Shown here: piece by piece, positions 1,067 through 38,252 of the stretch
How positions within the stretch are numbered: position 1 is the stretch's first letter
How the letters are laid out: the number at the start of each line of letters is the position of its first letter
Source of the DNA: Gemmiger sp. An120
Lineage (GTDB): Bacteria; Bacillota; Clostridia; Oscillospirales; Ruminococcaceae
Length of the DNA: 64,000 bases
Direction: 5' to 3'
NCBI RefSeq assembly: GCF_002160955.1
Contig: NZ_NFLN01000004.1
Span: 124,001 to 188,000, forward strand
Program-made: the position numbers and the translations under genes
Notes under the pieces: generated by a model
Database searches by the model: none
What the model was told of the DNA's origin: nothing
The model's input: the letters and a program-made list of their open reading frames with translations, nothing else

Positions 1067-1076
1067 GTTTGCCAGT

Positions 1077-1176: not shown

Positions 1177-1222
1177 TTTTTTGTTTTGCGGGGCGATACC
1201 AAACACTGTGGAGGAATGTTGT

Positions 1223-2410: not shown

Positions 2411-2422
2411 CCGGCTCAGAGC

Positions 2423-2473: not shown

Positions 2474-2490
2474 TTTTATTGGAGGTTCTT

Positions 2491-14444: not shown

Positions 14445-14650
14445 AGCAAATTTACACAAAAGCATTCTGTTGTGTTTGTGAAAACCTTCTGATTCTTACT
14501 TATTAGAATAGCACACATTGTATCTGCGTGCAAGACAATTTTGTTGAAACATGACAAAACTGCTCCTTACTGTTTGGAATGCGAATGGTGCGAACCCATG
14601 TTTTTTCTACTTTATAAAAGGGTAAAAATTGAAGCTTCGCACCAGATAAT
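14445..14650 (-). promoter_or_regulatory. Leader and promoter of CRISPR array 1
   Basis: On the minus strand a promoter TTGCAC-17 nt-TATTCT lies about 70 nt before the first repeat, and the leader ends TTTTGTGTAAATTTGCTGATGC at the repeat junction. A 9-bp inverted repeat TGGTGCGAA/TTCGCACCA (14586-14594 and 14636-14644) lies 141 nt from the first repeat. The same promoter layout, junction and inverted repeat occur in the leader of array 2. Confidence 0.75.
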
Positions 14651-14785
14651 CGCTACCAATTACGAATCCATAGTACTTTTCAAATCAGAAAATTCAAAAC
14701 AAAAAAACGTCAAAGCTCTGTCACAAATCGTGAAATATGCTACAATAAGGACATCAGCCGCCAGTATTCGGGGAGGATATTACGT

Positions 14786-16276: not shown

Positions 16277-16279
16277 ACT

Positions 16280-18277: not shown

Positions 18278-18290
18278 GGTGGTGAATCTT

Positions 18291-19559: not shown

Positions 19560-19924
19560 AATTTGAAAAGTTAACCGTGGAGCAGGCGCTGCACGACGGG
19601 CACGCGCTTCCCTTTGTATTTGCACGGTGTCTGAGCGAAGTTAAATTCGGAATCAACACTGAACTGCCAGCCTCCGAGGAACTTCTGGAAGTGCGTTTTT
19701 TTAATAGCGAGAAGGAGATCCGGCTGTTCAGGCGGCAGGGGCGTTTGGAAGCCGTTTGTCTGACACAAGAGCCCGAAGACGATTGTCTCGAGGAAGAATA
19801 TGAGATTGCGAATCCTTCGCTTTTCGGCACCAGCTTCACACTCAGCAAACTTCTGGATGTGGACGAGGACGGCCAAACTTTTGTAAAAGCTACTCGTTTG
19901 ACCGGTTGGAAAGGAGGAAAGTAA
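19556..19924 (+). CDS. csx19: Csx19-like type III-D subunit, 122 aa
   Basis: A short protein between two RAMP genes, as in III-D loci. The pattern LLEVRFFNSEKEIRLFRRQGRLEAV, followed by a very acidic segment (EPEDDCLEEEYEI) and a closing LFGT motif, matches the Csx19 family as remembered. Csx19 is a small structural subunit of III-D complexes with no known catalysis. The start overlaps the previous stop by four bases and the ribosome-binding site for the next gene lies in its 3' end, so translation is tightly coupled. Confidence 0.72.
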   Translation: MKFEKLTVEQALHDGHALPFVFARCLSEVKFGINTELPASEELLEVRFFNSEKEIRLFRRQGRLEAVCLTQEPEDDCLEEEYEIANPSLFGTSFTLSKLLDVDEDGQTFVKATRLTGWKGGK

Positions 19925-19926
19925 CC

Positions 19927-21768
19927 ATGGCCGAAAACCAAAAAGTAACGGCTCGAGCGCCCTACAATTTTGTTCCATTTTCGTCCAAGGTGTTGATTCG
20001 CTATGAAAATGCAGATCAGCTTCCTCCCCATGATCGAATCGACCCTGCATTAAAGACAGGCGAGATTCATGTGACAATCAAGGCAGAAACTCCCATTTTC
20101 ATATCGGACGGAAACCGTAATCCCGACTTTTTCCGCAATGCGGAAGGTAAGTTTGCCATTCCGGGTTCCAGCGTGCGCGGCCTGCTGCGACAGAACATGA
20201 TGATTCTCGGGTATGGCTTGCCCAGACCCGGAGAGGATCTGGAGGATTATCAAGTTTATTTTCGGGATATGACTGCCGCCAAAAAGTCTGTTGCGAATGC
20301 TCGCCGTGAGTATTATAAAGCAGCACTGAATATTGTAACGGAACAGCATAACCAAAAGCCAGTCAGCAAGCCGAAAAACGTACAAGCCGGTTATCTGCAT
20401 AAAGAAAACGGAAAATATTATATTCAGCCCATAGCGGGAGAGGTTTTCCGCGTTCCGCGCAGCCATCCGGATCTTGCACAGTTTCCGAGCCGGGATGCCA
20501 GCACCTGCTTTGTATCTTACACCGCTTCGAGCGACACGGTGAAAGAAATCAAGCCCGCGGGGACAGCCGGAATGCAGTCCGGTATGCTTCTCTACACAGG
20601 AAAGCATGTTGGTCAGAAAGCGAACCCTGTCTATCTGTTTCCACAGGAAGATCCAAGCCAGCCGGCTATTCAGCCAAGCGAATGGGATGTGCTGTCCTAT
20701 GAGGTTGATTACAAGAGTCGAGCCAATTCTCTGAGAGAAAACAAATCCTTCTGGGCATTACCGGATGAAGGCAAGATGAAGCCGGTTTTTTATTGCGCAC
20801 TGGACGGCCACATCTACTTTGGCATGACGCGATTTTTGCGGATCGGCTATAAACATTCTCTGCTGGAAGGTCTTCCGAAAAAACACAAAGAACTTCTGAA
20901 TGAAGACCCCTTTGTCCTGGACTACCCTTCGGCCATTTTCGGATACGCTCGAAAAGCCGGAAGAAATCAGCAATCGTATCGTTCTCGGGTTTCCGTGGGT
21001 GATTTTGTTCTGTGCACAAGCGCAACACAGATGCAGGACATCACCACCGTGTTGGGAGAGCCAAAGCCCAGTTATTACCCCGGCTATGTTGTGGACGGAA
21101 AAGACTATAATCAGGATGATTTCCGTCTTCGCGGTTATAAGCAGTACTGGATGAAGCCTGCTCAAGCACAGCAATCAGCCAATCCAAACGAAAATGTTCA
21201 AACTAGATTAAAGCCACTAAAAGAAGGCTGTGCATTTCGCGGAGTAATACGATACAAGAATCTCTCAGATGATGAACTGGGGCTTTTGCTCTGGACGCTG
21301 AAACTGGAAGAAGGCTGCTTCCAAAGTCTTGGAATGGGAAAACCTTATGGCTATGGAAGGGTGACCGTATCAGTAGATAAATTGACCAGTCTGGATCTGG
21401 ATAGCCTGTACACCTTACAGGGCTTTTGCAGCGATGCAAGGGACGAAACCACAGAAATTGACCGCTATATCCGCTGTTATGACGAATATGCCTCCAAACG
21501 TTTGGATGTCAAAAAAGGGAAGAAAAGTGTCTCGATCCGTTCGATGCGTGAGATAGAAGACTTTTTCTTCATGAAAAAGCCCGTACAAGAGCCCGTTCAG
21601 GCATCTTATATGGAATTGAAAGAATTCAAAGATATCTCTGCCCCTTTGCCGGATGTAACACAGCTGCGGAAAGAAACAGTGGAAAGTGCCCCTAAGAAAG
21701 CAGATTCAGAAATTGATCCTTTTGAAAAGTTGCTTGCGATGTATGGTTCCAAAAATAAACGGAGGTAA
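19927..21768 (+). CDS. TIGR03986-type CRISPR RAMP protein, 613 aa
   Basis: The opening TARAPYNFVPFSSKVLIRYE ... LPPHDRIDPALKTGEIHVTI is characteristic of the TIGR03986 RAMP family found in type III-D loci. Further RAMP elements are ETPIFISDG, FAIPGSSVRGLLRQNMMILG (about 78-97), SAIFGYARKAGRNQQSYRSR (about 340) and the late glycine loop LGMGKPYGYGRVTVSV (about 480). The tail is charged and probably flexible. GGAGGAAAG precedes ATG 19927. It is expected to be a Cas7-like backbone subunit that binds crRNA and may cleave target RNA. Confidence 0.85.
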   Translation: MAENQKVTARAPYNFVPFSSKVLIRYENADQLPPHDRIDPALKTGEIHVTIKAETPIFISDGNRNPDFFRNAEGKFAIPGSSVRGLLRQNMMILGYGLPRPGEDLEDYQVYFRDMTAAKKSVANARREYYKAALNIVTEQHNQKPVSKPKNVQAGYLHKENGKYYIQPIAGEVFRVPRSHPDLAQFPSRDASTCFVSYTASSDTVKEIKPAGTAGMQSGMLLYTGKHVGQKANPVYLFPQEDPSQPAIQPSEWDVLSYEVDYKSRANSLRENKSFWALPDEGKMKPVFYCALDGHIYFGMTRFLRIGYKHSLLEGLPKKHKELLNEDPFVLDYPSAIFGYARKAGRNQQSYRSRVSVGDFVLCTSATQMQDITTVLGEPKPSYYPGYVVDGKDYNQDDFRLRGYKQYWMKPAQAQQSANPNENVQTRLKPLKEGCAFRGVIRYKNLSDDELGLLLWTLKLEEGCFQSLGMGKPYGYGRVTVSVDKLTSLDLDSLYTLQGFCSDARDETTEIDRYIRCYDEYASKRLDVKKGKKSVSIRSMREIEDFFFMKKPVQEPVQASYMELKEFKDISAPLPDVTQLRKETVESAPKKADSEIDPFEKLLAMYGSKNKRR

Positions 21769-21774
21769 AGTCAA

Positions 21775-23088
21775 TTGGCAAAGAAAATACTGCTGTTCGT
21801 CAGTGGGAATATAGGCCAGGAGGCGGAAGAGTATATTTGCCCGGATGGTACTGTGGTGCAAGGCGGCTTGACTAACGAAGCACCGGTAAAATACTTGCTC
21901 AAAACATATCCGAATGTCCAAGAATTGATCTGCGTTGTCACTCCGGAGGCAAAAAATGCATATCAAGAATTGAAAAAACGCCTGAATATGGTAGCTACTG
22001 GTTTGTCGTATGTGGAGGTTCCGTTTCAGGAATCCATGAGTATCGAGCAATGTCTTCCTGGTATCATGGAAAACATCAAGCAGAATGACGAGATCCTGCT
22101 GGAAACCACCGGCGGTTTCCGTAATGCGGTCATGTATATGATGCTGCTCAGCCGGCTACTTCTGTATGTGGATTCCCCGATTGTTCAGGCCGTATATTCC
22201 CGCCGGCCAGCGCCCGGGAAACAGGGCAGCATCGAAGATGTATCCAAAATTATCCGTCTGTTCGATCTGATTAATGGAATGCAGGAGTTGAGCTCTTTTG
22301 GTAGTGTCCGAACGCTGCGGCAATACTACGGGCAGGCGCCGGAAGACGCTCGGATCGCCAGCTTCCTGGAATCAATGGAACAGCTGAACGAATCGATTCT
22401 GCTGTGCCGGGTAAAGCAGATCTCTGAAAATCTGAAAAATTTTCAAACCAGTTTGATCGAACTGAAAAATTGCAGCGACCCAATCATGCAGGCACTGCTC
22501 CCTGCTTTCAGAAAAAAATTCAACGGAAAGCTGAAAACAATTGACCTGATTCGGTGGTATCTGGAAAGCGATATGCTGCCGCAGGCTCTGACTCTGTACA
22601 CGGAAAAAATCCCCGAGCGTATCTTGGGCAAGAACCGGCCCCTGGAAACACGCGAAGGGCAGAGCCCTTGGCGTGTGAAACCGGAACATGCGTATCGCGA
22701 TGAAGCAACAGATGAATTGCTCGAGAACGTGTTTATGCTGTCGTGGAAAAGCCAGAAAATTAATCCATATCAAACCGAGAAGAGTCATGGAAAATACAAA
22801 CAAGATTGGTACCCTTGGACATTGAAACACCTGAAAAAGCTGTTGCCGAATGAGCAGTATGACGTGAATTGTAGCATGGAAAAGCTGCACCAGATTTTGT
22901 GCGATTATTTGTACATCAAGGCTCTTCGCAACTTGACCAATCACGCCAGTGAAACAGTGGACTCATTCAAGAAAGAGCAGGAAGAGTATCTGTGCGAGCA
23001 GGGGTATCCCGCACTGAACGATGTGACATTGCCGCAAGTTAAGAAAATCATGTTCAAAGCATTGGCGCGGTTGTCTACCATCCGGTAA
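21775..23088 (+). CDS. CARF-HEPN ribonuclease (Csx1/Csm6-like), 437 aa
   Basis: Ancillary ribonuclease predicted to be switched on by cyclic oligoadenylate from Cas10. The N-terminal CARF domain shows KKILLFVSGNIG at the start and LLETTGGFRNAVMYMMLLSR near 108-128, the ligand-binding (D/E)xTxGxR signature. The C-terminal HEPN domain contains RNLTNH at about 385-390, matching the catalytic RxxxxH motif. It starts at TTG 21775 behind GGAGG, which may keep its level low. It follows the RAMP gene by 6 bp and precedes a hairpin and cas6. It would degrade RNA non-specifically during infection. Confidence 0.86.
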   Translation: MAKKILLFVSGNIGQEAEEYICPDGTVVQGGLTNEAPVKYLLKTYPNVQELICVVTPEAKNAYQELKKRLNMVATGLSYVEVPFQESMSIEQCLPGIMENIKQNDEILLETTGGFRNAVMYMMLLSRLLLYVDSPIVQAVYSRRPAPGKQGSIEDVSKIIRLFDLINGMQELSSFGSVRTLRQYYGQAPEDARIASFLESMEQLNESILLCRVKQISENLKNFQTSLIELKNCSDPIMQALLPAFRKKFNGKLKTIDLIRWYLESDMLPQALTLYTEKIPERILGKNRPLETREGQSPWRVKPEHAYRDEATDELLENVFMLSWKSQKINPYQTEKSHGKYKQDWYPWTLKHLKKLLPNEQYDVNCSMEKLHQILCDYLYIKALRNLTNHASETVDSFKKEQEEYLCEQGYPALNDVTLPQVKKIMFKALARLSTIR

Positions 23089-23096
23089 TTTGCCAG

Positions 23097-23132
23097 CCAG
23101 GCGAAAGCGGAGCGCAATTCGCTTTCGCCTGG
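23097..23132 (+). promoter_or_regulatory. Hairpin between the CARF-HEPN gene and cas6
   Basis: Perfect 13-bp arms CCAGGCGAAAGCG (23097-23109) and CGCTTTCGCCTGG (23120-23132) without a following T-run. It could be a partial terminator or an RNA-stability or processing element that separates cas6 expression from the effector genes. Confidence 0.55.
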
Positions 23133-23189
23133 CGATTGTAATTGTGGCAAAATTAACTCTCGTATAAAAGGCAGAAAGAAGCAAAGATT

Positions 23190-23933
23190 ATGGCAGCCAT
23201 GACACGATATCAGATTGAATTAACACCCAGCTGCGGATGCAAGCTGGATATAGGATGGGCCTATCGACTGTATGCGGCGCTTCTGGAGCAGCTTTCTCCT
23301 GAGCAGGCGCAGCAGATTCATGAAGCTCCTGTAGCGCCGTTGGGACAGCATTTAAGATTTGAGGCTGGCCGATGGATCTGGGAAATCGGCCTGCTGGGTG
23401 AGCAGGGAGAGCAGTTCCTGCGCCCTGTTCTGGAACAAACAGACGTTTATTCTCTTAAAGACGGTGCAATTAAACTGCGTGCGAAAATTTTGCAGCAAGA
23501 AACAATTGACAGCCTGGAAAACCTTCTCGAAATCAGCCCCGCAAAGGGGTGTCAGCATGAACTTTATTTTCGTACGCCAACGGCTTTCAAAAGCCAAGGT
23601 GAATACCTGAATCTTCCCAGCGCCAAATTGTTGCTTCAAAGCCTTGTAAAAAAGTGGAACGGCAATTTCCCAGAATGTCAAATAGAGGACACTGACGGGG
23701 AAGGTCTGGTGGTGATGTCCCATAGGTTGCATTTCCAGGTTTTTTCGCTAAAAAGTCAACGGTTTTGGCTGAAAGGAAAAGCCGTTACAGGCTTCACGGG
23801 AAAAATTGTTCTGGAGGACAGGAACCAGGGGTTTCATTCGGAACTGGTAAACGCGCTCCTGTATTTTTCGCAATTCAGTGGAATAGGAATAAAAACCGCA
23901 CTCGGTATGGGCGGAGTGGAATATCGCCGGTAA
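23190..23933 (+). CDS. cas6: Cas6 crRNA-processing endoribonuclease, 247 aa
   Basis: Cas6 cuts the repeat of the pre-crRNA to leave the 8-nt 5' handle, here ACAGTAAC. Length and architecture fit: two ferredoxin-like halves and the diagnostic C-terminal glycine-rich loop FSGIGIKTALGMGGVEY. A catalytic His cannot be fixed by eye; His residues lie in QLSPEQAQQIHEAPVAPLG, a typical position. The start may be ATG 23190 or ATG 23202 (MTRYQIELTP), as the ribosome-binding site is weak. It is the last gene of the operon and sits beside the leader of array 2. Confidence 0.87.
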   Translation: MAAMTRYQIELTPSCGCKLDIGWAYRLYAALLEQLSPEQAQQIHEAPVAPLGQHLRFEAGRWIWEIGLLGEQGEQFLRPVLEQTDVYSLKDGAIKLRAKILQQETIDSLENLLEISPAKGCQHELYFRTPTAFKSQGEYLNLPSAKLLLQSLVKKWNGNFPECQIEDTDGEGLVVMSHRLHFQVFSLKSQRFWLKGKAVTGFTGKIVLEDRNQGFHSELVNALLYFSQFSGIGIKTALGMGGVEYRR

Positions 23934-24201
23934 GAATAACGGCCAATCTCTTTAATTGAGAGTTTTCTCTCCGGCGAATCCAGCAGGACGCGCATCACGG
24001 TCTTGGTGCGAAGCTCTTTTTTCTCACTGCTGTCTCGTGGCTTAAAACATGGGGTTCGCACCAGACATCGTTCAAATATTATCGCTTTTTTCTGGGATTT
24101 CTCACAAAACCAACTTGTGTTCAAGTAAAAAGTCTGCTAATATAATAGCAAGACTTGGAAAGTCTATTAAATGCATCGATAAATTTTTGTGCAATTTTGC
24201 C
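23934..24201 (+). promoter_or_regulatory. Leader and promoter of CRISPR array 2
   Basis: Promoter TTGTGT-17 nt-TAATAT lies about 60 nt before the first repeat. The leader ends TTTTTGTGCAATTTTGCCGATGC, closely matching the array 1 junction. The inverted repeat TGGTGCGAA/TTCGCACCA (24004-24012 and 24055-24063) lies 138 nt from the first repeat, against 141 nt in array 1. No protein-coding signal is seen in this stretch. Confidence 0.75.
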
Positions 24202-24651
24202 GATGCATCCTACACCCCTCACGGGGACAGTAACGTGGTAGCAGTGGTCAGAGCAATGTTCTTTGCGGATGCATCCTACACCCCTCACGGGGACAGTAAC
24301 GTGATGCAACGGAGAAAATCGTCCTCACAATTTCGAGATGCATCCTACACCCCTCACGGGGACAGTAACATAAACTTTTCTCCGCTTTTTTACGACAGAA
24401 TATCCAAGATGCATCCTACACCCCTCACGGGGACAGTAACCTCTCGCAGAAAAACAGCTCTCGACCCAGCCGACTGGGATGCATCCTACACCCCTCACGG
24501 GGACAGTAACTGGATCGAGGCAGTGGTGTTGGATTCATCCACATCCGGATGCATCCTACACCCCTCACGGGGACAGTAACCCCTTCTTCCTCAAACTTCA
24601 GATGCCGTTTATCCCAGCGATGCATCCTACACCCCTCACGGAGTCAGTAAC
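24202..24651 (+). CRISPR. CRISPR array 2: seven 33-nt repeats, six spacers, read on the plus strand
   Basis: Repeats start at 24202, 24268, 24337, 24408, 24478, 24548 and 24619, beginning GATGCATCCTACACCCC and ending CACGGGGACAGTAAC. Spacers are 33-38 nt. The last copy is degenerate (GGAGTCAGTAAC), marking the leader-distal end at the right. The repeat differs from array 1 only in its first third (GATGCATCCTA against GATGCGCTTCA) and keeps the stem and the ACAGTAAC handle, so one Cas6 can process both. Confidence 0.96.
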
Positions 24652-24844
24652 CCAGCAAAACGCTCTGTTTGGTGATCGTGCTGTTGATACATTCCACACC
24701 TACTGTTGAAACACTAACAGGGCATTTCACAAGATCAATAGTACTCGGATTGCGGTGTACCTGATTCCTTTTCCCGAGCAGGATAAGGTTTCTTGTGCCA
24801 TCTATATTTCATAATAAGTTCAGTGAAAGAACTGTTACTTTTCT

Positions 24845-24875
24845 GGTCGGCAAACTTCAGTTGCCGGCCTTTTTG
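24845..24875 (+). terminator. Terminator downstream of CRISPR array 2
   Basis: GGTCGGCAA (24845-24853) and TTGCCGGCC (24861-24869) enclose a 7-nt loop and are followed by TTTTT. The rest of 24652-25065 contains no gene; a possible promoter TTGTCT-16 nt-TACAGT and a small inverted repeat ACAGGGG/CCCCTGT lie just before the next gene. Confidence 0.85.
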
Positions 24876-25065
24876 ATTTTCGCGCTCTCCTGCCTCTTCC
24901 CCCTCGCAAAGAAGAATCTTAGGCTTCCATTTCAAATAGCGATGTTTGGGGACAAATTCTGCACATCTTTCTGATGATGGACATTTGTCTGTCCAAGGCG
25001 TAATGGTACAGTACCCTTATAAATACAGGGGCAACGTTTCCCCTGTAAAAAGGAGGAACGATCAT

Positions 25066-27786: not shown

Positions 27787-27986
27787 GTATAGGTCAGACC
27801 ATACGCGTTTATTTATGAGTTTTGGATGGAGAACTATTTCAGACCGTCGTGTTACAAAGATAGTATCAACAATTTTGGCAAATTGGTTTAGCGTCATTAA
27901 TGTACGTTGCTCGTCATGCGTAAAACGAGTATACCATGGGACAAGCTCCCCGTGCTCGGCCCTTCGTAGGTTGATAAACAGAGAGG

Positions 27987-28047
27987 TCGAAATAGCAGAG
28001 CAGAATGCTGCGGAATAATGGTAAAGGCGCATGCCTCAATTTGAAAC
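27987..28047 (-). repeat. 60-bp dispersed repeat, copy A (inverted)
   Basis: On the minus strand this reads TTTCAAATTGAGGCATGCGC, then CCTTTACCATTATTCCGCAG, and so on. The plus strand at 33325-33385 carries a clearly related sequence with the same ATTATTCCGCAG core. The two face each other across the int/xis module. Confidence 0.6.
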
Positions 28048-28116: not shown

Positions 28117-28401
28117 TTACTGGGGAATCGACAGCTTTTCGCCCAACGACTGGGCTTCTTGAATAAGGAGCAGCCCAGCGGCAAAGCCGCTGCAGAAGTG
28201 AGACTGGCACTCCAGGCTGTGCTGTTCAAAAATCTTTTCGGTAAGCTGGTCTACCAGCAGGTAATCTTCCGTGTCCAAACGCCGCTTCAGCTCATCGCGC
28301 AGTTCGCCGATTTCCTTGCCCAGATCCCAGCTACCGGGAATATCATCCACACAGGTCTCACTGGGGCGGAAATTACCGCTATAAATTGCTTCCATCATCA
28401 T
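28117..28401 (-). CDS. DUF6809-family small protein, 94 aa
   Basis: MMMEAIYSGNFRPSETCVDD followed by EIGELRDELKRRLDTEDYLL matches the general pattern of DUF6809 proteins (short helical proteins starting with an LYxGNxxPSE motif and ending in a GFxxGxxLxxE helix; here FCSGFAAGLLLIQEA). These are frequent on clostridial mobile elements and have no known function. Start ATG 28401 is chosen to keep the motif at the N-terminus and avoid overlap with the upstream gene, which ends at 28427; GAAAGGA lies about 15 nt upstream. Confidence 0.7.
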   Translation of the reverse strand: MMMEAIYSGNFRPSETCVDDIPGSWDLGKEIGELRDELKRRLDTEDYLLVDQLTEKIFEQHSLECQSHFCSGFAAGLLLIQEAQSLGEKLSIPQ

Positions 28402-28426
28402 TGGTGTATGACACATCCTTTCAAAA

Positions 28427-29998
28427 TCATACAAGCTGCTTTTCAGCATGAGTAGCCAAACTAAAGTTATAAGGGGCACTGGGTGACCCGTCAGGGAAAA
28501 GAGGCGCAGGCAATGCGTTCATCAAGGGCAGCATCGCCGCCATGTGTTCGGCAAAGCCGGCGGCCAGCAGTACGCCCCGGGTGGGCTGCACACCGCTCAG
28601 CACTAGGCCGTCCCAGTACATCCGCAACTGATACAAATCCTGCGGTTCGCCCTTGCCCGCCTTGAGTTCGTAGATATCGCACTTGCCAGACTTCGTCCGA
28701 TCAGTCACGTCGATGCGGGTGCCGGTGGGCCAGACAGTCACCTCGCCGGTCACATCGTCTTCGGGATTGGTTGCTTTCAGCATCTGCATCCAGCGCAGGC
28801 GCAATTCCTTTTCTCCGGCCGACTGGGCATTCTTTACCGGCGGATAAGCTGCCAAAGCCTCAAATACCTTGTCCCAATCCGGATCGGTACGATCGATGCC
28901 GGTCTTGTTGGTGAGGGTCGAAAGCACTCCCCTGGGCAACTCGGGGATCAGCAGTTCGCCCACAAAGTCATTGTAAGCGTTATGGCGGCTTAAAGCTGAA
29001 CCGTCCTCTTTGCGCCAAATTTCGCCGAGTTGGGCCGTTGCAATTACCCGCTTGCCCAGCCGGATGTCGATGCCCTGCGTAGGCTGAGATCCCTGGTAGT
29101 AGTAGCGCACCTTTCCGCCCTGTACCAGATGATCCCGCATAGAGCGATCCAGCAGACCGTACACGTAGGTCAAGGTTACGATCTGGCCACCCAGTTCGAC
29201 CTGGAAGTGCTCCGTGTGCGTCATCATCATCGGAACATGAATCGGAGGCACCAGCACAGCGGAATCGCCAACCGTTACTACGATCTTCGCGCTGGGTTCC
29301 AAGGTTTCGCTGTCCAGAGCCAAAAAGCCGCGATATGCAACTCCCAGATGTTCGATGAGCCAAGTGCGCATTGTAGCCAAATCAGTGAGCCGACGGTTGC
29401 CCTGCCGCTGCATAGTACGGGCAATGGTCATGGGTACCCGAACACAGACTACAGTAGAGGGATCGGCCCAGTGCAAATTCAGCCCCGATGCCAGGTCCAG
29501 CGTATCCACCTGTTCGACAATCATGGTGAGGTCGAAGGGACCGCTAACCCTGTAGTAGTTGCCGGGCTGGCTGCGGGTATAGATACACCAATCGCCGGTG
29601 CCACCGGAGAGACAGGCCAGCGCGTTGAGAAGTCCGAAGCCATGCTCATTCAGCCGGTTGGTACCCGTGGGCAGACTGCCAAGCTGCAAGGCATTTGTAA
29701 GAGCGTCCAGGTCCATGCCCCGGCCCCAGTCTGCGACCGCCAGATTCAGATAGTTCTGGTCGTTATCCGGGGCCAGCGCGATGCAGATACGGGCCTTATC
29801 TCCGGGCAGCGCGGCAGCCAGAGCGTTGTCAACGACCTCGCAATTGCCCTGCGGAAAGGTCATTCCCTGACGGGCCAGTCCGTCAAAGGCTTTATTGGTA
29901 ATGTTGATGTGAATCTCGTGCCGATCCGGGGAAGAATCAGCCGACGGAAGTTTCGGCAGGGGGGCGGGTACGGTGTTTGTAAGATTCATTTCATTCAT
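28427..29998 (-). CDS. GHKL ATPase fused to a PD-(D/E)XK nuclease-like domain, 523 aa (probable defence gene)
   Basis: The N-terminal 200 residues form a GHKL ATPase: N-box CEVVDNALAA (53-62), DWGRGMD (90-96) and HGFGLLN (119-125), as in MORC, MutL and Hsp90-type ATPases. The middle (about 210-400) is a beta-rich transducer-like region. The C-terminal part contains RIDVTD, then CDIYELKAGKG (Asp441, Glu444, Lys446) and DLYQLRMY, the pattern of a PD-(D/E)XK nuclease core. ATP-gated dimer clamping coupled to DNA cleavage is a plausible mechanism. GAGG precedes ATG 29998. It sits beside an integrase, a typical place for defence cargo. The exact system is not recognised. Confidence 0.78.
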   Translation of the reverse strand: MNEMNLTNTVPAPLPKLPSADSSPDRHEIHINITNKAFDGLARQGMTFPQGNCEVVDNALAAALPGDKARICIALAPDNDQNYLNLAVADWGRGMDLDALTNALQLGSLPTGTNRLNEHGFGLLNALACLSGGTGDWCIYTRSQPGNYYRVSGPFDLTMIVEQVDTLDLASGLNLHWADPSTVVCVRVPMTIARTMQRQGNRRLTDLATMRTWLIEHLGVAYRGFLALDSETLEPSAKIVVTVGDSAVLVPPIHVPMMMTHTEHFQVELGGQIVTLTYVYGLLDRSMRDHLVQGGKVRYYYQGSQPTQGIDIRLGKRVIATAQLGEIWRKEDGSALSRHNAYNDFVGELLIPELPRGVLSTLTNKTGIDRTDPDWDKVFEALAAYPPVKNAQSAGEKELRLRWMQMLKATNPEDDVTGEVTVWPTGTRIDVTDRTKSGKCDIYELKAGKGEPQDLYQLRMYWDGLVLSGVQPTRGVLLAAGFAEHMAAMLPLMNALPAPLFPDGSPSAPYNFSLATHAEKQLV

Positions 29999-30030: not shown

Positions 30031-31146
30031 TCACACAATGGATTCCAGCGCAGCCACAGCGTCTGCCAGGCTGTCGTCGGAGATATGCAAATAATGGTCG
30101 GTGGTTTTGATGTCGGTGTGTCCGGTGAGCCGTGCAATGGTCTCCATGGGCACACCCTGGCTCTGCAGCAGTGTTACATAAGTGTGCCGGCAGCAGTGTG
30201 GAGAGGGGGAACGAACATTGGGGTATTGGGCCAGCAGCTTATAGTACTTACGCCGCACGGTGTAGGTGGCGTAGAGCAGGCTGTCCCGGCGGGGCGCGCA
30301 CCAGAGAAATGCCTGGCCGCCGTTCTCCCGCAGCCACAGCGGGATGTGGCGGTATTTTTGTGCAACGGGGACCACCCGGCGGCTGGTATAGCTCTTGGGC
30401 GAGCCAAGCTTAGGGATGCCGTCTACCATCTTGACGGCCTTGTTCACGCGCACCACGCTTCCGTCCGCGGCAATGTCTTTGGGGGTCAGTGCCAGCAGCT
30501 CCTGCATACGTAGGCCGGTAACGAGCATCAGTCGGATGCTGTTGCCCAGCAGGTCATTCGGCAGGTCTTTTAAAAGAATCTCAACCTCTTCAACAGTGAA
30601 CGCATCCTTTTGATGGGTCCGCTGGCTTTTGCTGAGCCGCTTGGTGGTGCGGAAGGCCCGGCGGGCATAGTTTTTAATGACCAAGTCGTCGGCCTCGGCT
30701 ACATCCAGGATCTGGATGAGCAGTGAGCGGCACTTGCTGATTTGAGAGGCGGAATATCCACAGGATTCCAGCTCATTGATGAACCGGTTGATCTGAACGG
30801 TCTTCACAGCGGTAAGCCGCAGATGACCGAAGGCCTTGTTCAGCAGTTTGATGGTGTAGCGATAATTGCACCAGGTGGATTCCTCTACCTGTGAGCGGTA
30901 AGACTCATACCAAAGGTTGGCATAGTCGGCGAACAGTGGCACTTCCTGCGCCTCGACGCTGCCGGGTTCAGGTTTGTTCAGAAGATACTCCCGCATACGG
31001 GCCAGAGCCTCCGCTCGGGTAGGGGCGGTAAAACTCACGATGTGTCGCTTGCCCTCGTCGGTGAAGCCGTCCATGATCTGACTCTGCCAGCTGCCGCTGG
31101 GCAGCCGGTGGACGGAGCCTTCACCCTTGCCGCGCTTACCCGACAC
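30031..31146 (-). CDS. int: Tyrosine integrase (Tn916-type), 371 aa
   Basis: Site-specific recombinase of an integrative element. An N-terminal AT-rich arm-binding part (GEGSVHRLPSGSWQSQIMDG) and a SAM-like core-binding domain (about 70-165) are followed by the catalytic domain. The catalytic residues are visible: Arg213 in TGLRMQEL, His317-CC-Arg320 in box II, His343 in LTGHTDIKTT and Tyr352. It starts at GTG 31146, overlapping the end of the excisionase-like gene, whose 3' end supplies AAGGAGG. It looks intact, but neither flank shows a matching attachment site, so it may belong to a nested element or act on the tRNA-Pro sites in place of the decayed integrase at 5.3 kb. Confidence 0.92.
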   Translation of the reverse strand: MSGKRGKGEGSVHRLPSGSWQSQIMDGFTDEGKRHIVSFTAPTRAEALARMREYLLNKPEPGSVEAQEVPLFADYANLWYESYRSQVEESTWCNYRYTIKLLNKAFGHLRLTAVKTVQINRFINELESCGYSASQISKCRSLLIQILDVAEADDLVIKNYARRAFRTTKRLSKSQRTHQKDAFTVEEVEILLKDLPNDLLGNSIRLMLVTGLRMQELLALTPKDIAADGSVVRVNKAVKMVDGIPKLGSPKSYTSRRVVPVAQKYRHIPLWLRENGGQAFLWCAPRRDSLLYATYTVRRKYYKLLAQYPNVRSPSPHCCRHTYVTLLQSQGVPMETIARLTGHTDIKTTDHYLHISDDSLADAVAALESIV

Positions 31147-31375
31147 GGAGACCTACCTCCTTATCCGCGGTACGCAGGTCGGCCGGCATACGGGTGTGCT
31201 TGTCCACCCAGGCCAGAAACGGCTTCGTGGGGATGCGGATGGAGTTCCCCAGCCGGCAGACCGGGAAGTCCTTGCGGTGGGTAAGCTCATAGGCTGCGGT
31301 GGAACTGATACACAGATAGCTCTTCACGTCAGCCACGGTGAGGTAGTTCTTTTCAAACGAGATATCCTTTTTCAT
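31136..31375 (-). CDS. Excisionase-like helix-turn-helix protein, 79 aa
   Basis: A MerR-like winged helix of the AlpA/Xis type: YLTVADVKSYLCISSTAAYE followed by FPVCRLGNSIRIPTKPFLAW. The pattern of a turn, a recognition helix and an arginine-rich wing is standard for excisionases and DNA-binding adaptors of clostridial integrative elements. It overlaps the integrase start by 11 bp, as in Tn916-like xis-int pairs. AAGGAG precedes ATG 31375. It probably directs integrase toward excision. Confidence 0.85.
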   Translation of the reverse strand: MKKDISFEKNYLTVADVKSYLCISSTAAYELTHRKDFPVCRLGNSIRIPTKPFLAWVDKHTRMPADLRTADKEVGLRVG

Positions 31376-32075: not shown

Positions 32076-32119
32076 GTCGTTTTCTGACTGAAAGCATATC
32101 CAGATGAGCAACATAGGAT

Positions 32120-32486
32120 GGCATAGTCAAGGCTCCGCAGATAAAAACCTCAAAGCTGTTTTACCCTGCGCCTGCGGCCTGACCAAAGAGGAACTGGATG
32201 AGGATTACAAGAAGAACACCGGCAAGGTAATCGTGGAGACCTTCACGGGCCGGCGCATTGACCCGGTGCATCTGCCCGCGGTCATCTGCCGCAGTCACGG
32301 GCTTTTACCTGGGGCAAAACGGCGGCCCAGGCGGTGTATCACGCGGTGGTGCTGGAGGAGGTGGCCAAGATGGCCGCCTATACCCGCCTGGTCAGCCCGG
32401 GCGCGCCCCCCGCTCCCGCCCATGGGTGGAAAAGCACTTCATGCGCAAGCATGGGCCCAATGCATATTACGGGCAGAAGAAATATA
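32120..32486 (+). pseudogene. araD: Decayed L-ribulose-5-phosphate 4-epimerase (AraD-like) C-terminal fragment
   Basis: Segments in three frames join to an AraD-like C-terminus: LTKEELDEDYKKNTGKVIVE and [14 protein letters not shown] in one frame, [20 protein letters not shown] in the next, then [16 protein letters not shown] in the third. At least two frameshifts and a missing N-terminal half show it is not functional. The normal enzyme interconverts L-ribulose-5-phosphate and D-xylulose-5-phosphate in pentose catabolism. Confidence 0.82.
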
Positions 32487-32488
32487 CA

Positions 32489-33139
32489 ATGCGTTTTTTC
32501 CATTGATACCGCCAATGTGGACGAGATCCGCGCTGCCAACAATATGGGCGTGATCGCGGGCGTTATTACTAACCTCAGTCTCATCACCAAGGAGGACCGG
32601 GACTACGCCGAGGCCCTGAAAGAGATCGCCACCATCGTGGACGGCCCCATCTCCGGCGAGGTGAAGGCCACCACCACCGACGCAGCGGGCATGATCAAGG
32701 AAGAGCGCGCTATCTATGCGCTGGACCCGAAACACATGGTGTGAAGATCCCCATGACCGCCGAGGGGCTGAAGGCCATCAAGGTGCCTTCCGCCGAGGGC
32801 ATCCCCACCAACTGCACGCTGATTTTCTCCGCCAACTAGGCGCTGCTGGCAGCGAGGGCGGGCGCGGCCTATGTGTCGCTCTTCCTGGGGCGGCTGGATG
32901 ACATCAGCCAGCCAGGCATCGACCTCATCCAGACCATCAGCGCCATCTTTAATAACTACCCCGACCTGCACTGCGGAATTATCGCGGCCAGCGTGCGCAA
33001 CCCCATCCATGTGACCGACTGCGCTCTGGTGGGTGCGGACATCGCCACCGTGCCCTACAAGGTCATCCGAAGCACCCACTAACCGATTCCGGCATTGAAA
33101 AGTTCAAAGCAGACTATGTAAAGGTGTTTAGCATGTAAA
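32489..33139 (+). pseudogene. Decayed transaldolase/fructose-6-phosphate aldolase-like gene
   Basis: From ATG 32489 (MRFF, then a frameshift) the frame gives [20 protein letters not shown] and [20 protein letters not shown]. After further frameshifts and a TAG near 32839 come [20 protein letters not shown] and [19 protein letters not shown], then a TAA inside the conserved HPLTDxGIxKFxxDY end. This is a transaldolase-family (TalC/FSA-like) gene with several lesions. It follows the araD remnant closely, so a former pentose operon has decayed. Confidence 0.85.
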
Positions 33140-33324: not shown

Positions 33325-33385
33325 GTTTCAAATTGAAGCATGCACCTTTACGATTATTCCGCAGTATTCTACCCTGCCGTCTCAA
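33325..33385 (+). repeat. 60-bp dispersed repeat, copy B
   Basis: GTTTCAAATTGAAGCATGCAC, CCTTTACGATTATTCCGCAG and following bases match the minus strand at 27987-28047 with scattered substitutions. The surrounding 33140-33588 has no supported gene. Confidence 0.6.
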
Positions 33386-33588
33386 TCTTTCTCGGCTTAT
33401 CCCACAATTTTGCATGTTCTTCGCTGGCACACCACCATTCACCACTTAGAACGTGTTCATTGGATACCAACAAGAAGAAAACGACAGGCTTGCGATTTTC
33501 CTTCTACGCTGGCCACACCAACAGATACGGGATACACAGCGCCAATTCTATGGTATAATGACAATTAAAGAGAAAAGGGGGTGCGCTA

Positions 33589-34671
33589 ATGGACTGGATT
33601 TTACTGAACAAAGATACGCCATTTCTGAAATTCTCCACCTATCAGAACGAATTTGGCGATGTTTCAGCCCAGGAAACGGCCTGGATTTCTCCCTTGCGGC
33701 CCATCGGATACAGATCTCTTTTGGGTTTCCTAGAAGGGCGACGCGCTCCCAAGCATCGAAAACACATTGAACAACTTCTTGCGCAATACGGCTGCCTCAC
33801 ACTGGACGGTTTTTTGCAGGTCAGCCACGCGCTTTCCCTCAATGATACCTTTTGGGTAAAACAGGAAGATTCGCCGTTGTGCTGGCAGGCTGTGTCCCTG
33901 TATCAGAATGACTTTGATGAGATCATCGCCGAGGCCGCGCTGAACGGCTCCTTCAGCGAGCAAAGCCTTTCTTCCACTTCGCCGGAATTTGCTACAGACG
34001 GGTATTATGCCAAGTGCTGGAAACGGGAGCAAGACGGCATCTATCTCTATAAAGCCGGCAGCGCCACCTATGAACTGGAGCCATTATCTGAATATCTGGC
34101 TGCTCAGCTTTCGGGTATCCTGTGCCCTGGTGCAGTTCCGTATGATATGCGATTTCATCATGGGCGACTGGTATCTACCTGTCCCCTGTTCACCAGCGAA
34201 TCTGTCGGCCTTGCCAAAATAGCTGCCATTGCCCGTGAAGACCGGTCTATATCCGGCTTACTGGAGTATTTCCGTTCGATCGGCAGTGAGGACGCCTTCC
34301 GCCGCATGATGGTTCTGGACGCCATTATCCTGAACACAGACCGGCATCTAGGAAACTTCGGTGTACTGTTTGACACGGATACCATGCAGGTGAAAACCAT
34401 GGCGCCGGTATTTGACAATAACCGTAGTTTGCTGTTTGATTTGGATTCTGATCAATTGAATCACGCAGAGTGGTATATAGCCCATCTTACCCCACGGCTG
34501 GGATCGGACTTTATTGCCCCAGCGAGGGCCTTGATGACAGAAGATATCCGCAGTGACCTGAAAAACCTGTATGGCTTTGCGTTCCGGGAACATCCGCAGA
34601 TTCCGGTGACGGATGACCGGCTTGAGAAGTTGAGTACAGTTGTGAACAATCAGATTCAGCAGTTGCTATGA
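33589..34671 (+). CDS. HipA-like Ser/Thr kinase, 360 aa
   Basis: The C-terminal part has the HipA/PI3K-like kinase signature: LDAIILNTDRHLGNFGVLFD (NTDRHLGN at 249-256, catalytic Asp251 and Asn256) and APVFDNN (272-278, metal-binding Asp276). A lysine in YLYKAGS (about 155) fits the ATP site. The first 110 residues are not the usual HipA N-subdomain. Solo proteins of this kind, without a HipB antitoxin next door, occur widely on clostridial elements and may act as toxins or phage-response kinases. GGGGGTG precedes ATG 33589; a strong terminator follows. Confidence 0.8.
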   Translation: MDWILLNKDTPFLKFSTYQNEFGDVSAQETAWISPLRPIGYRSLLGFLEGRRAPKHRKHIEQLLAQYGCLTLDGFLQVSHALSLNDTFWVKQEDSPLCWQAVSLYQNDFDEIIAEAALNGSFSEQSLSSTSPEFATDGYYAKCWKREQDGIYLYKAGSATYELEPLSEYLAAQLSGILCPGAVPYDMRFHHGRLVSTCPLFTSESVGLAKIAAIAREDRSISGLLEYFRSIGSEDAFRRMMVLDAIILNTDRHLGNFGVLFDTDTMQVKTMAPVFDNNRSLLFDLDSDQLNHAEWYIAHLTPRLGSDFIAPARALMTEDIRSDLKNLYGFAFREHPQIPVTDDRLEKLSTVVNNQIQQLL

Positions 34672-34720
34672 TCTTTTGAAACGTGTAAGGCTTTTTCTTT
34701 CGCAAATATCCTGCAATATA

Positions 34721-34777
34721 AAAGAGTCATTTGGTGTTACCGCATCTTTGCGGCTTTACACCGGATGACTCTTTTTT
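34721..34777 (+). terminator. Terminator of the HipA-like gene
   Basis: AAAGAGTCATTTGGTGT pairs with ACACCGGATGACTCTTT around an inner GCATCTTTGCGG loop and is followed by a T-run. The remaining gap to 34953 holds only a small AAATGGCTT/AAGCCATTT hairpin (34821-34842). Confidence 0.85.
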
Positions 34778-34953
34778 CATTAAAGGGCCATCGTTGCAGC
34801 TCACAGGTGCAAAGTCATTCAAATGGCTTTATGAAGCCATTTCCAGGCGTTTTTGAAATAATACGAATTGTAATATTTTTATGAACACGTGGACATTTCA
34901 ATTCCTGTGCGTACTAATATAAATAAGGGGCAAAAAATAGGAGGTACAAAAAC

Positions 34954-36579
34954 ATGGCTCATTCTCACAACGATTTTCCCATTTCCGGGTACTGGGGCCG
35001 ACAGAAAGTTCACCACAATACAAATCGGAACAAGATGCAATACGACGCCCGCTATATGCTCAAAAACCCTGCCACAAAAAAGGTCTACACCAATGCACAA
35101 ATACTGACAGACCTTACACGGCGCAAGAAAGAGTATCCCGGTCTAGCTCTTTTGCTGGAGCCATGGATTGCGGAAATTACTTCCCGCGCCCAGAAAAATC
35201 CTGATGCGGAATTCTCCCTGCACTGCAGTGATTCCACCGAAGAACGCGCACTGGCCCGTTTGAAAAAGATGCGCTGGAACGAGTTGGAAACCTTGGCACA
35301 GCTGCTTTATCGCCCGCTGTACGAGCGCAATCTGAAATACGGTGATGTGACGGTACGTGACTTTGTGACGTACCAGGCCAATACACTGTATGCCGGAGAA
35401 ACGCCCACCACGCGTACTCGTCTGATTGGTTCCTTAAAAAACTATATTCTACCTGAGATTGGGGAGAGCAAACTGAACACATTGGATGCCGGTCGCCAGA
35501 AAAAAGCCCTGGAGACTGTCAACAAGAAACTGTCCGTCGGCAAAACTACCCGCAATACCATTATGAGGGCGTATCGGGGTCTCATTCTGGCGTTCGAAAG
35601 CAGCGGCTGGACAGGCTGCTCCGCCGGTCTGCGGCTGGTTGACCTGCTCAAAGGTCCCACCGATCCGAACAACGCTATCATCAGAAGCTGCCGTGTCGCT
35701 CACTTGGACGATACTCAGCGTACGGCGCTGTTCCAGCTGCTTTCTGATTCGGCACATCTGTATGACCTGTTCTGGATCGCGCTGCTCTACTCTGGAATGG
35801 ACCCGGCCGACATCGCCGGACAGACCTACGGCGATATTGAGGAGCTGACCATGCAGGATGGAAGCTGCTGCTATACCGTCCTGATCAGCCACCGGGTGCG
35901 AAAGTTGAGCGACCGATATTCCACGCTGCAAGCAACCAATGAGAACTTCCCTATTTATAAGTTTCGCCGTCTCGTGCTCACTCCCTGGGCCGGACAAGTG
36001 CTACTGCGCCGACTGGAACAGCTGCGCGGCCTCGGGTTTTCCACTGACCAGATCCGGGAAATGCGCCTTTCTGCCGAAAAGCCTGGCGACGCCATCGTCG
36101 GGCCGGATGAGCTCGCCAAGCGCCTGCGACCGCTTTTGCAGCAGGCAGGCATCCCGGATATTTCTCCCACCCGTACCGATAAAAAGGGGCGTGCTTATCG
36201 CCAAGTCATTAAAGAAGATATAAACCTGTTACTGCGGGATGTCCGCCACCTGGCAAAGCAGTGCGGCGCCGATGATGTAATGCTGCATACCATGTTTGGC
36301 GAGCAATGGTCGGATACAGACGAAGAGGCATATCTGGATTTGCTGGGTGATTCATACGCTGTAGCTCGCTGGCAGCGACTGCGACGCTGGTCTCCCCTTG
36401 CGCCGACTCCCCTGTCTACTACCGGCAAAGGATGTCTGGCGGGCTATACCCATGTGCCTGCCCGCCACATTCTACAGGTAATCAACTCCACCGGCCATCC
36501 GGTGACATTGACCCTGCGTGCCCCCTATGCGCTTAGTGCGTACTGGGCCCGCAACGAAAAAGAAAGGAACGCATCATGA
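34954..36579 (+). CDS. Degenerate tyrosine-recombinase-like protein A, 541 aa
   Basis: The fold outline of a phage-type integrase is visible: a core-binding helical region (about 125-230, VTVRDFVTYQANTLYAGETP) and a catalytic-like domain with FWIALLYSGMDPADIAGQTY where active enzymes have TGLRxxEL. Here the catalytic Arg is replaced (GMD). Box II is LLLRDVRHLAKQCG followed by LHTMFGEQWSDTDEEAYLDL, lacking the LGH element. It is therefore probably catalytically dead and acts as a partner of the next protein. A beta-rich C-terminal tail follows. AGGAGGT lies at 34939-34945; the stop overlaps the next start by four bases. Confidence 0.75.
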   Translation: MAHSHNDFPISGYWGRQKVHHNTNRNKMQYDARYMLKNPATKKVYTNAQILTDLTRRKKEYPGLALLLEPWIAEITSRAQKNPDAEFSLHCSDSTEERALARLKKMRWNELETLAQLLYRPLYERNLKYGDVTVRDFVTYQANTLYAGETPTTRTRLIGSLKNYILPEIGESKLNTLDAGRQKKALETVNKKLSVGKTTRNTIMRAYRGLILAFESSGWTGCSAGLRLVDLLKGPTDPNNAIIRSCRVAHLDDTQRTALFQLLSDSAHLYDLFWIALLYSGMDPADIAGQTYGDIEELTMQDGSCCYTVLISHRVRKLSDRYSTLQATNENFPIYKFRRLVLTPWAGQVLLRRLEQLRGLGFSTDQIREMRLSAEKPGDAIVGPDELAKRLRPLLQQAGIPDISPTRTDKKGRAYRQVIKEDINLLLRDVRHLAKQCGADDVMLHTMFGEQWSDTDEEAYLDLLGDSYAVARWQRLRRWSPLAPTPLSTTGKGCLAGYTHVPARHILQVINSTGHPVTLTLRAPYALSAYWARNEKERNAS

Positions 36580-38252
36580 CCAAAAAATCCCCTCCCCCAA
36601 AAGAATTCTCGTATCAAGGCGTAGATTTTCGTATTTGTTATGCATATCCATCGGCAGACAAACACAAGGACGCCCCCTGCCGCGGCCGCATTAATCCGTT
36701 GGACCCTATGACCGGCAAGTGCCTTACAAAGCGGCAGTTGTTCGGCAAAGATAGCGACTCGCCAGTTAATCACATCGTACATGGCAAAGACCCCTGGGAC
36801 ATCTACAACAATCGAGAGAAGGAAGCCAGCTATCTGCTTTCCATGATGACGCAGTGCGGTTTACTGGTCGGTGTTGCCGTGGCGGATCCCTCCGCGGTCG
36901 CTGATCTCGCCGAATTGGCCCGGAAGTACAAACAGACCCTCTTTGAAATGCATTCAAAATGGGCAAAGTCCACTGTGAAAAGTTATAGTGGTCAATACGA
37001 CTCGCTTGTGGAGGAGATGACCGGCCTGCGCGCCGGCGACCTGGATGATGCCGCTTACAAGCAGCTCCAGAATAAAATCTGCCGCAACGCAGCGCAAAAG
37101 GCTCTCAAACACCACACGTGGGCATATGGTGAAACCCCACCTCCCTCTGCCCAGAGACGGTTGAGCCTGTTGTATGATCTGATCCGCTGTCTGAAGGCAG
37201 AAGGCGTGTCCATTCCAGTGGTGCCGTTTCCGTACAACGGAAAGCCTTCCCGCCAGATGCTGCTTCTGGACCGGACTGACCACGCCCGCGCAATTCCGGA
37301 TGGAATCCTCCGTGCCATCTGTGCCGACCCGGTCATCCAGGGCCAGGCAGAAATTCTGGCTGACGCTGGTCTGCGGATTGGCGAATGTACTGGTCTTTTG
37401 TTTGATTCCTTGCGCTGGCTGGACACCTCGCAGGGCCGGATGTATTATCTGGACATCAGCGGCCAGGTAGATGATGACGGCAAGCGCACCGAGCTGCCTA
37501 AAACCAAAGATTCCTACCGGGTGGTTCCTCTCTCTCGGGAGCTGGGAGAGGCTCTTGCGCGCTATCGGAACGAGATGGAAACGAAGTATGGCGACCTTTC
37601 CCTGCGTCTTATGTGCGGACAAGCCGACGAAAACGGGTTTGACGACAGTCCCGCCAAAGCAGCCGCCTGGGAAGCGCAGGTGCGCGCACGAATCTCGATG
37701 CTGCTGCGTAAGTCCTCCGCCTTCCAGGCGATCGCTGCCAATCGCGTTTATCTTTTCGACAAACAAGCCCAAGATGCTGAGCTGTACTCCCAGCTTTTCG
37801 CTCATTCATGGCGGCGCAATTTCTGTACCGAGTTATATTGCTCCAGCGGACTGAATTCGTCGAAGATTCATCGGCGGATGGGGCATGTCTACAAGCCCCT
37901 TCCTCCCCAAAAGGCCAGCGGCCTCAATCCAACAGAGCTGTGCCTAATGTGTCTCGAAAAGCATGTGAGCCCCACGCTCTATCATCCGGCCAATCCTCTT
38001 CGCTATGATGCGGACGGGCCTTTCCAGGCCACTGAGGTGCCCTCCTGTTGCATCGAGTTGACCTTGAAGCCGGGCGATTCCGTTGAGCTGACGGTGGAGG
38101 ACACCGAGCCGGGCACCGTAACCCGCATTTCCGGTGAGGGATTGACCATTCAGCGCTTGCGTCGTGATGAGCGCCGTAATGTTACTTACGATTATGGCCT
38201 TCTGTCGTCTGCTGAAACCATCACCGTTGTGAAAAAGCGTAACTTGGTATAA
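36576..38252 (+). CDS. Large tyrosine-recombinase-like protein B, 558 aa
   Basis: It overlaps the preceding gene by four bases (ATGA), implying joint synthesis. The core-binding region (about 125-200) is followed by ILADAGLRIGECTGLLFDSL (catalytic Arg present), then HSWRRNFCTELY (HxxR) and IHRRMGHVYK (GH). The nucleophilic Tyr is not in the usual position; TLYHP or the Tyr after GH are candidates. Inserted before the tail is a Cys-containing segment (NPTELCLMCLEKH). The tail (ELTLKPGDSVELTVEDTEPG and beyond) is a beta-rich module whose decayed duplicate lies directly downstream. Pairs of unequal recombinases are known to work together; the target site of this pair is unknown. Confidence 0.78.
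   Translation: MTKKSPPPKEFSYQGVDFRICYAYPSADKHKDAPCRGRINPLDPMTGKCLTKRQLFGKDSDSPVNHIVHGKDPWDIYNNREKEASYLLSMMTQCGLLVGVAVADPSAVADLAELARKYKQTLFEMHSKWAKSTVKSYSGQYDSLVEEMTGLRAGDLDDAAYKQLQNKICRNAAQKALKHHTWAYGETPPPSAQRRLSLLYDLIRCLKAEGVSIPVVPFPYNGKPSRQMLLLDRTDHARAIPDGILRAICADPVIQGQAEILADAGLRIGECTGLLFDSLRWLDTSQGRMYYLDISGQVDDDGKRTELPKTKDSYRVVPLSRELGEALARYRNEMETKYGDLSLRLMCGQADENGFDDSPAKAAAWEAQVRARISMLLRKSSAFQAIAANRVYLFDKQAQDAELYSQLFAHSWRRNFCTELYCSSGLNSSKIHRRMGHVYKPLPPQKASGLNPTELCLMCLEKHVSPTLYHPANPLRYDADGPFQATEVPSCCIELTLKPGDSVELTVEDTEPGTVTRISGEGLTIQRLRRDERRNVTYDYGLLSSAETITVVKKRNLV

Follow-up and report, generated by a model that had tools for sequence, protein, structure and literature searches.

A fusion of a MORC-type GHKL ATPase with a predicted NucS/EndoMS-like nuclease beside integrase genes, a candidate single-gene defence protein

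In the window analysed here, a 64,000-nucleotide stretch of contig NZ_NFLN01000004.1 from Gemmiger sp. An120, a gene that joins a GHKL ATPase to a PD-(D/E)XK nuclease follows the genes for a tyrosine integrase and an excisionase, and the locus raises the question of whether such a fusion is defence cargo of a mobile element, as a sequence-only reading of the same DNA had proposed. That reading had also placed GHKL and nuclease motifs in one chain, int and xis beside it and a small DUF6809 gene after it. All three observations stand: the motifs lie at the assigned residues of a single 523-aa frame, and the neighbouring genes carry matching Pfam domains. The four genes run in the order xis, int, GHKL-nuclease, DUF6809, all on the (-) strand.

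31136..31375, (-): excisionase-type HTH protein (xis), 79 aa; HTH_17 3.9e-8, and NCBIfam 'excise' TIGR01764 at 9.4e-5, below its own cut-off
30031..31146, (-): tyrosine integrase (int), 371 aa; Phage_integrase PF00589 1.7e-15, PF14659 2.3e-12, phrog_1 integrase 6.8e-62
28427..29998, (-): GHKL (MORC-type) ATPase–PD-(D/E)XK nuclease fusion gene, 523 aa, ATG at 29998; open reading frame, Shine-Dalgarno sequence, Pfam/NCBIfam, 36 aligned homologues
28117..28479, possibly 28117..28401, (-): DUF6809 gene; PF20648 2.1e-12

The fusion gene, present in a single copy in its own genome, starts 32 nt behind the integrase gene, which is apparently intact, and its ATG is preceded by a GAGG at 30011-30008, 9 nt upstream. 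At its other end, the DUF6809 ORF call shares 53 nt with it. Because the DUF6809 domain begins only at codon 28, where ATGATGATG is found at 28401-28393, the true start may lie there, 25 nt beyond the GHKL stop; the ribosome site at this position is weak.

Homologues were collected with an alignment query, which found 33 loci in genome contigs of 31 genomes and 4 more in viral contigs. The window protein and 36 of these 37 loci make up a 37-row alignment (L033, with unclear start and frame, was left out), in which the ATPase and transducer half can be followed motif by motif.

29504..29923, (-): GHKL/HATPase_c domain, about residues 26-165; HATPase_c match at 54-145, AlphaFold2 model, MORC3 match from residue 32
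29825..29839, (-): N-box E54-V-V-D57-N58; E54 in 36/37 rows
29711..29731, (-): ATP-binding motif D90-W-G-R-G94-M-D96; D90 and G94 in 37/37
29624..29653, (-): ATP-lid motif LNEHGFGLLN, residues 116-125; L116, E118, G120 and G122 in 37/37
28847..29461, (-): S5/transducer domain, about residues 180-384, with G309-(x7)-R317 and NK365T; conservation, and fold match to MORC3/MORC2/SMCHD1 up to about residue 395

Pfam HATPase_c matches the 523-aa protein at E 2.8e-6, and since its 28.2 bits clear the gathering cut-off of 26.4, the GHKL motifs are more than a chance resemblance. In the GHKL family, the N-box residues provide the general base and a Mg ligand. E54 is missing only in L019, which apparently lacks its N-terminus, and the N58 column holds Asn in 29, Asp in 7 and Thr in 1 of the 37 rows; the closest relative has Asp, which is unusual for an N-box and counts against the explanation favoured below. 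In the transducer, K365 occurs in each of the 36 rows that extend this far, G309 is invariant and R317 is found in 90% or more. The AlphaFold2 model of the whole protein (mean pLDDT 88.7, pTM 0.73) resolves residues 1-383 into a low-confidence start, with residues 1-22 below 50, followed by the ATPase and transducer. Its top Foldseek match is mouse MORC3 (3.9e-13), and a second structure comparison, covering the 1000 chains ranked highest by Foldseek and treating Z values within 1 as tied, aligned residues 32-395 with MORC3 (5ix2_B, Z 23.9, rmsd 3.2, 290 residues), MORC2 (23.1), MORC4 (23.1), SMCHD1 (22.7) and Hsp90 (20.6 at best), so that MORC3, MORC2 and MORC4 tie as the nearest solved fold of the model, ahead of Hsp90. 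A whole-model search of BFVD returned mainly phage RIIA, topoisomerase and Hsp90-like proteins, which match through the ATPase part.

The protein hence resembles MORC ATPases in its closest solved fold over residues 32-395, in its GHKL motifs and basic S5 residue (K365) and in the G-x7-R spacing of the S5 motif. The strict S5 motif described for MORC proteins, GhXhhpXXRhl, is followed in part: in the window sequence, GIDIRLGKRVI, the G, the R and the hydrophobics that flank them conform, and the R at position 5 and the L at position 6 deviate. Unlike MORC, the window protein shows no CW zinc finger in Pfam and carries a nuclease fused at its C-terminus. The MORC-like clamp suggested by the sequence-only reading gains support from the modelled MORC fold and the conserved transducer lysine.

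The remainder of the chain is the predicted nuclease.

28430..28849, (-): NucS/EndoMS-type PD-(D/E)XK nuclease domain, residues 384-523; NucS profile 3.5e-6, AlphaFold2 pLDDT 93.5, EndoMS Z 12.1
28616..28711, (-): nuclease active-site cluster D430, E444-L-K446, Q457-xxx-Y461; alignment columns, match to P. abyssi NucS

D430, E444, K446 and Q457 are found in 36/36 rows that reach them, Y461 in 35/36 and D463 in 34/36, and E396, located in the first helix of the domain, is conserved in 90% of rows or more. The search with the whole model placed residues 32-395 only, leaving the nuclease aside, and the C-terminal domain was then modelled alone. The last 140 residues are predicted with a pLDDT of 93.5 in the alpha-beta-beta-beta-alpha-beta order typical of PD-(D/E)XK enzymes, so the objection that the C-terminus might have no nuclease fold falls away as far as confident prediction goes. 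Foldseek gives EndoMS/NucS at ranks 1-4 (4.4e-5 to 9.7e-4), followed by the Shedu protein SduA (8ps5, 1.0e-3), and the Z values follow a similar order: EndoMS 12.1 (rmsd 4.2, 116 residues), NucS 12.0 (3.2, 113), AF1548 11.0, FokI 10.0 and SduA (8ps4) 7.9.

Sequence profiles point the same way. Against 177,635 PDB sequences, the nuclease family profile matched NucS 2vld at 3.5e-6 and EndoMS 5gke at 0.009, with nothing else below E 0.3, and in the profile alignment the family D, ExK and QxxxY coincide with those of P. abyssi NucS, positions that we take to include the NucS catalytic residues. The single protein is a poorer probe, scoring 13.6 bits against Pfam NucS_C (cut-off 24) and 18.5 bits against NCBIfam NucS (cut-off 216), and phmmer against the PDB yielded weak matches only (best E 0.92). 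Among the 37 members, Pfam at E<=0.1 reports HATPase_c in 36, NucS_C in 5 (best 0.013), Cas_Cas4 in 3, PDDEXK_1 in 2 and SduA_C in none. By profile and by modelled fold, the C-terminal domain thus appears nearest to NucS/EndoMS, with which it has in common the catalytic residues D, ExK and QxxxY. In NucS itself the N-terminal domain binds DNA and the C-terminal one is the nuclease, which also occurs in other architectures (PMC5290159); unlike NucS/EndoMS, the window protein is devoid of that N-terminal domain and has the ATPase-transducer module in its place.

The pairing of a MutL/MORC-class ATPase with a nuclease that most resembles the mismatch endonuclease EndoMS invites an explanation in DNA repair, in which a MutL-type clamp would allow a NucS-type nuclease to act where bases mismatch or forks are damaged. 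The absence of the DNA-binding domain described for NucS (PMC5290159) speaks against it, as does a sporadic, mobile distribution where a core repair gene would be expected, and we regard a repair role as rather improbable.

A closer precedent is VcSduA, the GHKL-Shedu protein (Shedu type I-D) of the Vibrio cholerae WASA lineage, described as a validated single-gene defence protein in which mutation of either the glutamate of the GHKL site or the lysine of the nuclease removes protection against phage, and for which growth curves of infection at all tested multiplicities were read by its authors as direct restriction with host survival (PMC12137116). Like VcSduA, the window protein has an N-terminal GHKL ATPase, a middle clamp-like domain and a C-terminal PD-(D/E)XK nuclease in one chain, and it could be supposed to be a divergent GHKL-Shedu protein, and hence already described. 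In the comparison, VcSduA was represented by L085 and L086, of the same class and with a C-terminal SduA_C match (L085 passes the SduA_C cut-off only with its neighbours in frame, and L086 falls below it), together with plasmid relatives. The ATPase-transducer parts of the two groups match with profile probabilities of 93.9 (E 1.6e-7) and 87.6, and the general nuclease fold is shared with SduA, as the Foldseek and Z values above indicate. The nuclease alone, however, reaches a probability of only 17.7 over 44 columns, in which the D, ExK and Q columns align; the VcSduA nuclease domain (DUF4263/SduA_C, PF14082) is matched by 0/37 members at E<=0.1, and NucS is nearer in both sequence and fold. 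An SduA_C (PF14082) search of the window's own genome gave no match. Furthermore, the comparators that could be read over their full length measure about 590-670 aa, against mostly 490-550 aa in the window family, and four of the five annotated plasmid comparators (L087, L088, L091 and L092, but not L090) adjoin a cytosine methylase, whereas the window family has no fixed partner. Membership of GHKL-Shedu is therefore most improbable; judged by the sequences of these comparators, the family would follow the VcSduA plan with a different nuclease branch.

The same plan had been anticipated. Iyer, Abhiman and Aravind (2008) predicted a paraMORC3 architecture of GHKL, S5 and C-terminal RE-fold with E-D-ExK (PMC2292703), to which E396, D430 and E444xK446 correspond here, and the two groups are alike in being sporadic and partly stand-alone. 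In the text description, which is the only basis of this comparison, paraMORC3 matches RecB-family nucleases and is prevalent in proteobacteria and bacteroidetes. Another paraMORC-related family has been described near R-M genes (Bellieny-Rabelo et al. 2021; PMC8011034). In the titles and opening abstract lines of the best-ranked open-licence PubMed Central papers, no description of a MORC-NucS fusion was found. This well-conserved, mobile family joins two modules already known, in an arrangement that comes close to a validated defence protein but is distinct from it.

The distribution of the family is broad and sporadic. With the single protein as tblastn query, one phage-record relative (28% identity over 94% of the query) and four plasmid relatives (25-29% over 85-86%) were recovered; a single-protein scan of viral contigs gave no match, but the alignment query, built from these five and the window protein, did match there. 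These five plasmid and phage-record homologues (L002-L006) were kept out of the structure alignments and included in a 42-row tree. The 36 aligned homologues, at identities of 21-74%, and these five all have the same domain plan, mostly in 490-550 aa. The tree takes in Bacillota, Actinomycetota, Pseudomonadota, Bacteroidota, Chloroflexota and Planctomycetota, and further members come from Zixiibacteriota, WOR-3, UBP15, Saccharibacteria, Thermoplasmatota and haloarchaea; many of these genomes are metagenome-assembled and some bins may be wrong. Since both active sites are kept across such highly diverged homologues, ATPase and nuclease appear to be held in one chain by selection.

The nearest kin of the window protein, L040, lies on a viral contig and is 74-75% identical (253/343 residues), ending with the contig before the nuclease half; the pair has a dN of 0.19 and a dS of 1.46, the latter near saturation, which indicates purifying selection. 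Next, at 42-48% identity, are six proteins whose hosts belong to Zixiibacteriota, Chloroflexota, UBP15, WOR-3, Bacteroidota and, in one case, Bacillaceae; members from Clostridia and Negativicutes are only 23-26% identical. The single protein found no match in 294 other sampled genomes of its own order, its own genome being the sole match (1/295). Such distant nearest kin, together with the absence from its own order, are the mark of a gene that moves. A GHKL-nuclease search of its own class tallied 110/391 genomes; beyond the window gene itself, most rows matched the GHKL part only and nine the nuclease end only; 11 ORFs from this search were set aside as non-members after inspection by eye (one MutL, three sensor histidine kinases and seven other GHKL proteins). 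L006 and L043 stand on a long branch of the tree and may represent another paraMORC family. Some genomes hold extra copies (G709:C11:89037-90338; three copies in G712), and one haloarchaeal copy is a 995-aa frame that matches profile positions 7-407 only, possibly with another C-terminal domain. On the contig of L040, positions 653-3535 hold a large helicase-like gene with, by eye, an N-terminal primase-like part, possibly resembling TOTE conflict systems.

The genomic surroundings support mobility more directly. In at least 7 of the 31 genomes (G703, G705, G708, G713, G715, G716 and G718; neighbour tallies were counted by hand from match lists that were cut, which makes seven a lower bound), a homologue has a tyrosine recombinase no more than 9 kb away, against 1.1 expected under uniform placement with one copy per genome; with 1.3 expected, an estimate that allows for the genomes with extra copies, the Poisson chance of seven or more is 4e-4. 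The largest common cluster of neighbours, from five loci, was likewise read as tyrosine recombinases. This excess is evidence of mobility and not of defence, because any gene of a mobile island would show it. Homologues are also carried by four plasmids, one phage record and four viral contigs, including L041, which lies between two large serine recombinases, and L042, on a 156 kb contig of putative viral origin, where one of six neighbours matched PHROGs, with function unknown.

These carriers, together with the int-xis pair directly adjacent to the window gene, fit inter-element competition, in which the gene would mainly serve its own integrating element by cutting other plasmids, phages and related elements instead of guarding the host. 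Several homologues, however, sit on chromosomes among ordinary genes, and the mechanism would be the same as in host defence, so that genomics does not separate the two; we consider competition of this kind unlikely, though with a real share of the probability.

The ends of the element are less clear. Direct repeats that might serve as att sites were sought and none was convincing: a 20-nt pair at 85% (28013/31970) would put int in the middle and is probably due to chance. A 68-nt inverted pair at 82% (27980-28047 and 33325-33392) brackets the int-xis-GHKL segment and may be a remnant common to two genes or an insertion mark. In an empty-site search among congeners, G668 and G669 match one flank each and gave no clear empty site. 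Beside the element, at 32104-32744 (+), lie partial sugar genes that occupy different frames: araD (L-ribulose-5-phosphate 4-epimerase) and fructose-6-phosphate aldolase.

The sequence-only reading had also called for a survey of homologues near defence genes, and restriction genes were found at a minority of loci, with no conserved operon partner among them. DUF6809 was considered as a partner and rejected: it occurs in 5/32 genomes, the window's own included, yet never on the homologue's contig in the 31 homologue genomes, which makes the DUF6809 gene a hitchhiker rather than a partner. Restriction proteins of the Sau3AI/MutH family lie near L005 (1-1452), L006 (15376-16935) and L016 (11271-12704, by BLAST clustering); they cluster together, in an echo of the MutL-MutH pairing. 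Little weight attaches to the dcm/SNF2 genes around L006, given its long branch in the tree. A DNA methylase gene ends where the L035 homologue starts, a YhcG-type nuclease lies near L023 and a ResIII-PLD helicase near L038. Among the neighbours that were read, many have housekeeping roles (EF-Tu, EF-G-type, DNA polymerase I, UvrB, transporters).

The restriction genes near some homologues, and the report that paraMORCs occur mostly in restriction-modification operons (PMC2292703), would accommodate the gene as one component of a restriction-modification system with its other parts elsewhere, as proposed for MORC/paraMORC operons. ResIII (PF04851) is indeed near at least 4/31 homologues where 1.3 would be expected; this excess is weak and includes UvrB. 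A C5 methylase (PF00145), however, is within 9 kb in only 1/31 genomes (0.26 expected), and among the scanned genes adjoining the window gene Pfam, PADLOC and NCBIfam reveal no methylase or helicase. A restriction-modification component is accordingly very improbable.

On balance we lean towards reading the gene as a single-gene, ATP-gated, NucS-type nuclease of a small integrating element, most likely acting in defence against phages or competing mobile DNA. Its architecture, predicted fold, conserved active sites, mobile context and spread are established here, and we infer dimerisation, ATP gating, double-strand cleavage and the defence role. GHKL proteins have ATP-dependent clamp cycling and dimerisation in common (PMC12733681). 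By this scheme, the GHKL and transducer domains would form a homodimeric clamp of the MORC/MutL type, which ATP binding would close on DNA. The ATP-driven clamp probably pairs two nuclease sites, a role suggested by the lack of the N-terminal domain of NucS in this nuclease, and only the closed dimer on the right DNA would nick both strands. By analogy with VcSduA, the protein would most likely protect host and element from phages or competing mobile DNA.

For the proposal that the gene is defence cargo, the mobile location, the sporadic spread, the shared plan with VcSduA (PMC12137116) and the restriction genes near a minority of loci make a plausible case. No link to catalogued defence emerged: the window protein has no match in PADLOC at E<=0.01, nor in PHROGs, and no conserved restriction partner or methylase accompanies the family. 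These points, the many housekeeping neighbours and the unexplained discrimination between self and non-self count against the favoured reading.

A more specific version of the defence reading, which we offer tentatively and hold to be doubtful, is that the family is a defence family that has no curated model of its own in the searched libraries and uses a MORC/MutL-type clamp where NucS/EndoMS has its DNA-binding half. Clamp closure would then switch on a mismatch-type nuclease that senses DNA structure (mismatches, forks, ends or the topology of replicating foreign DNA) and not sequence. If true, a single immune protein would unite the two chemistries known from mismatch repair.

Eukaryotic MORC ATPases are described as repressing transposons and as having roles in plant immunity, while their prokaryotic relatives have been little tested. 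With an ATP clamp and a nuclease in one compact gene, the family allows a direct test of how closure of a GHKL clamp licenses DNA cutting, and it points to reuse of the NucS/EndoMS catalytic domain, here controlled by ATP, in a role other than mismatch repair. Pfam and NCBIfam see the nuclease half below their cut-offs only.

Other features of the window lie near this gene. A Type III-D CRISPR locus at 14786-24579 (+), about 4 kb away, encodes Cas10d and Cas7/Cas5 III-D proteins, a Csx1-type CARF-HEPN protein (21775-23088), Cas6 (23190-23933) and a repeat-bearing ORF (24049-24579); Tandem Repeats Finder reported no array at 13900-24900, although a motif recurs within the ORF at 24049. On the other side, 33589-38252 (+) holds a HipA-like kinase related to PADLOC PDC-M03A models (4.3e-14), followed by two adjacent large ORFs, the second of which has a weak tyrosine recombinase match (2.2e-5, below cut-off).
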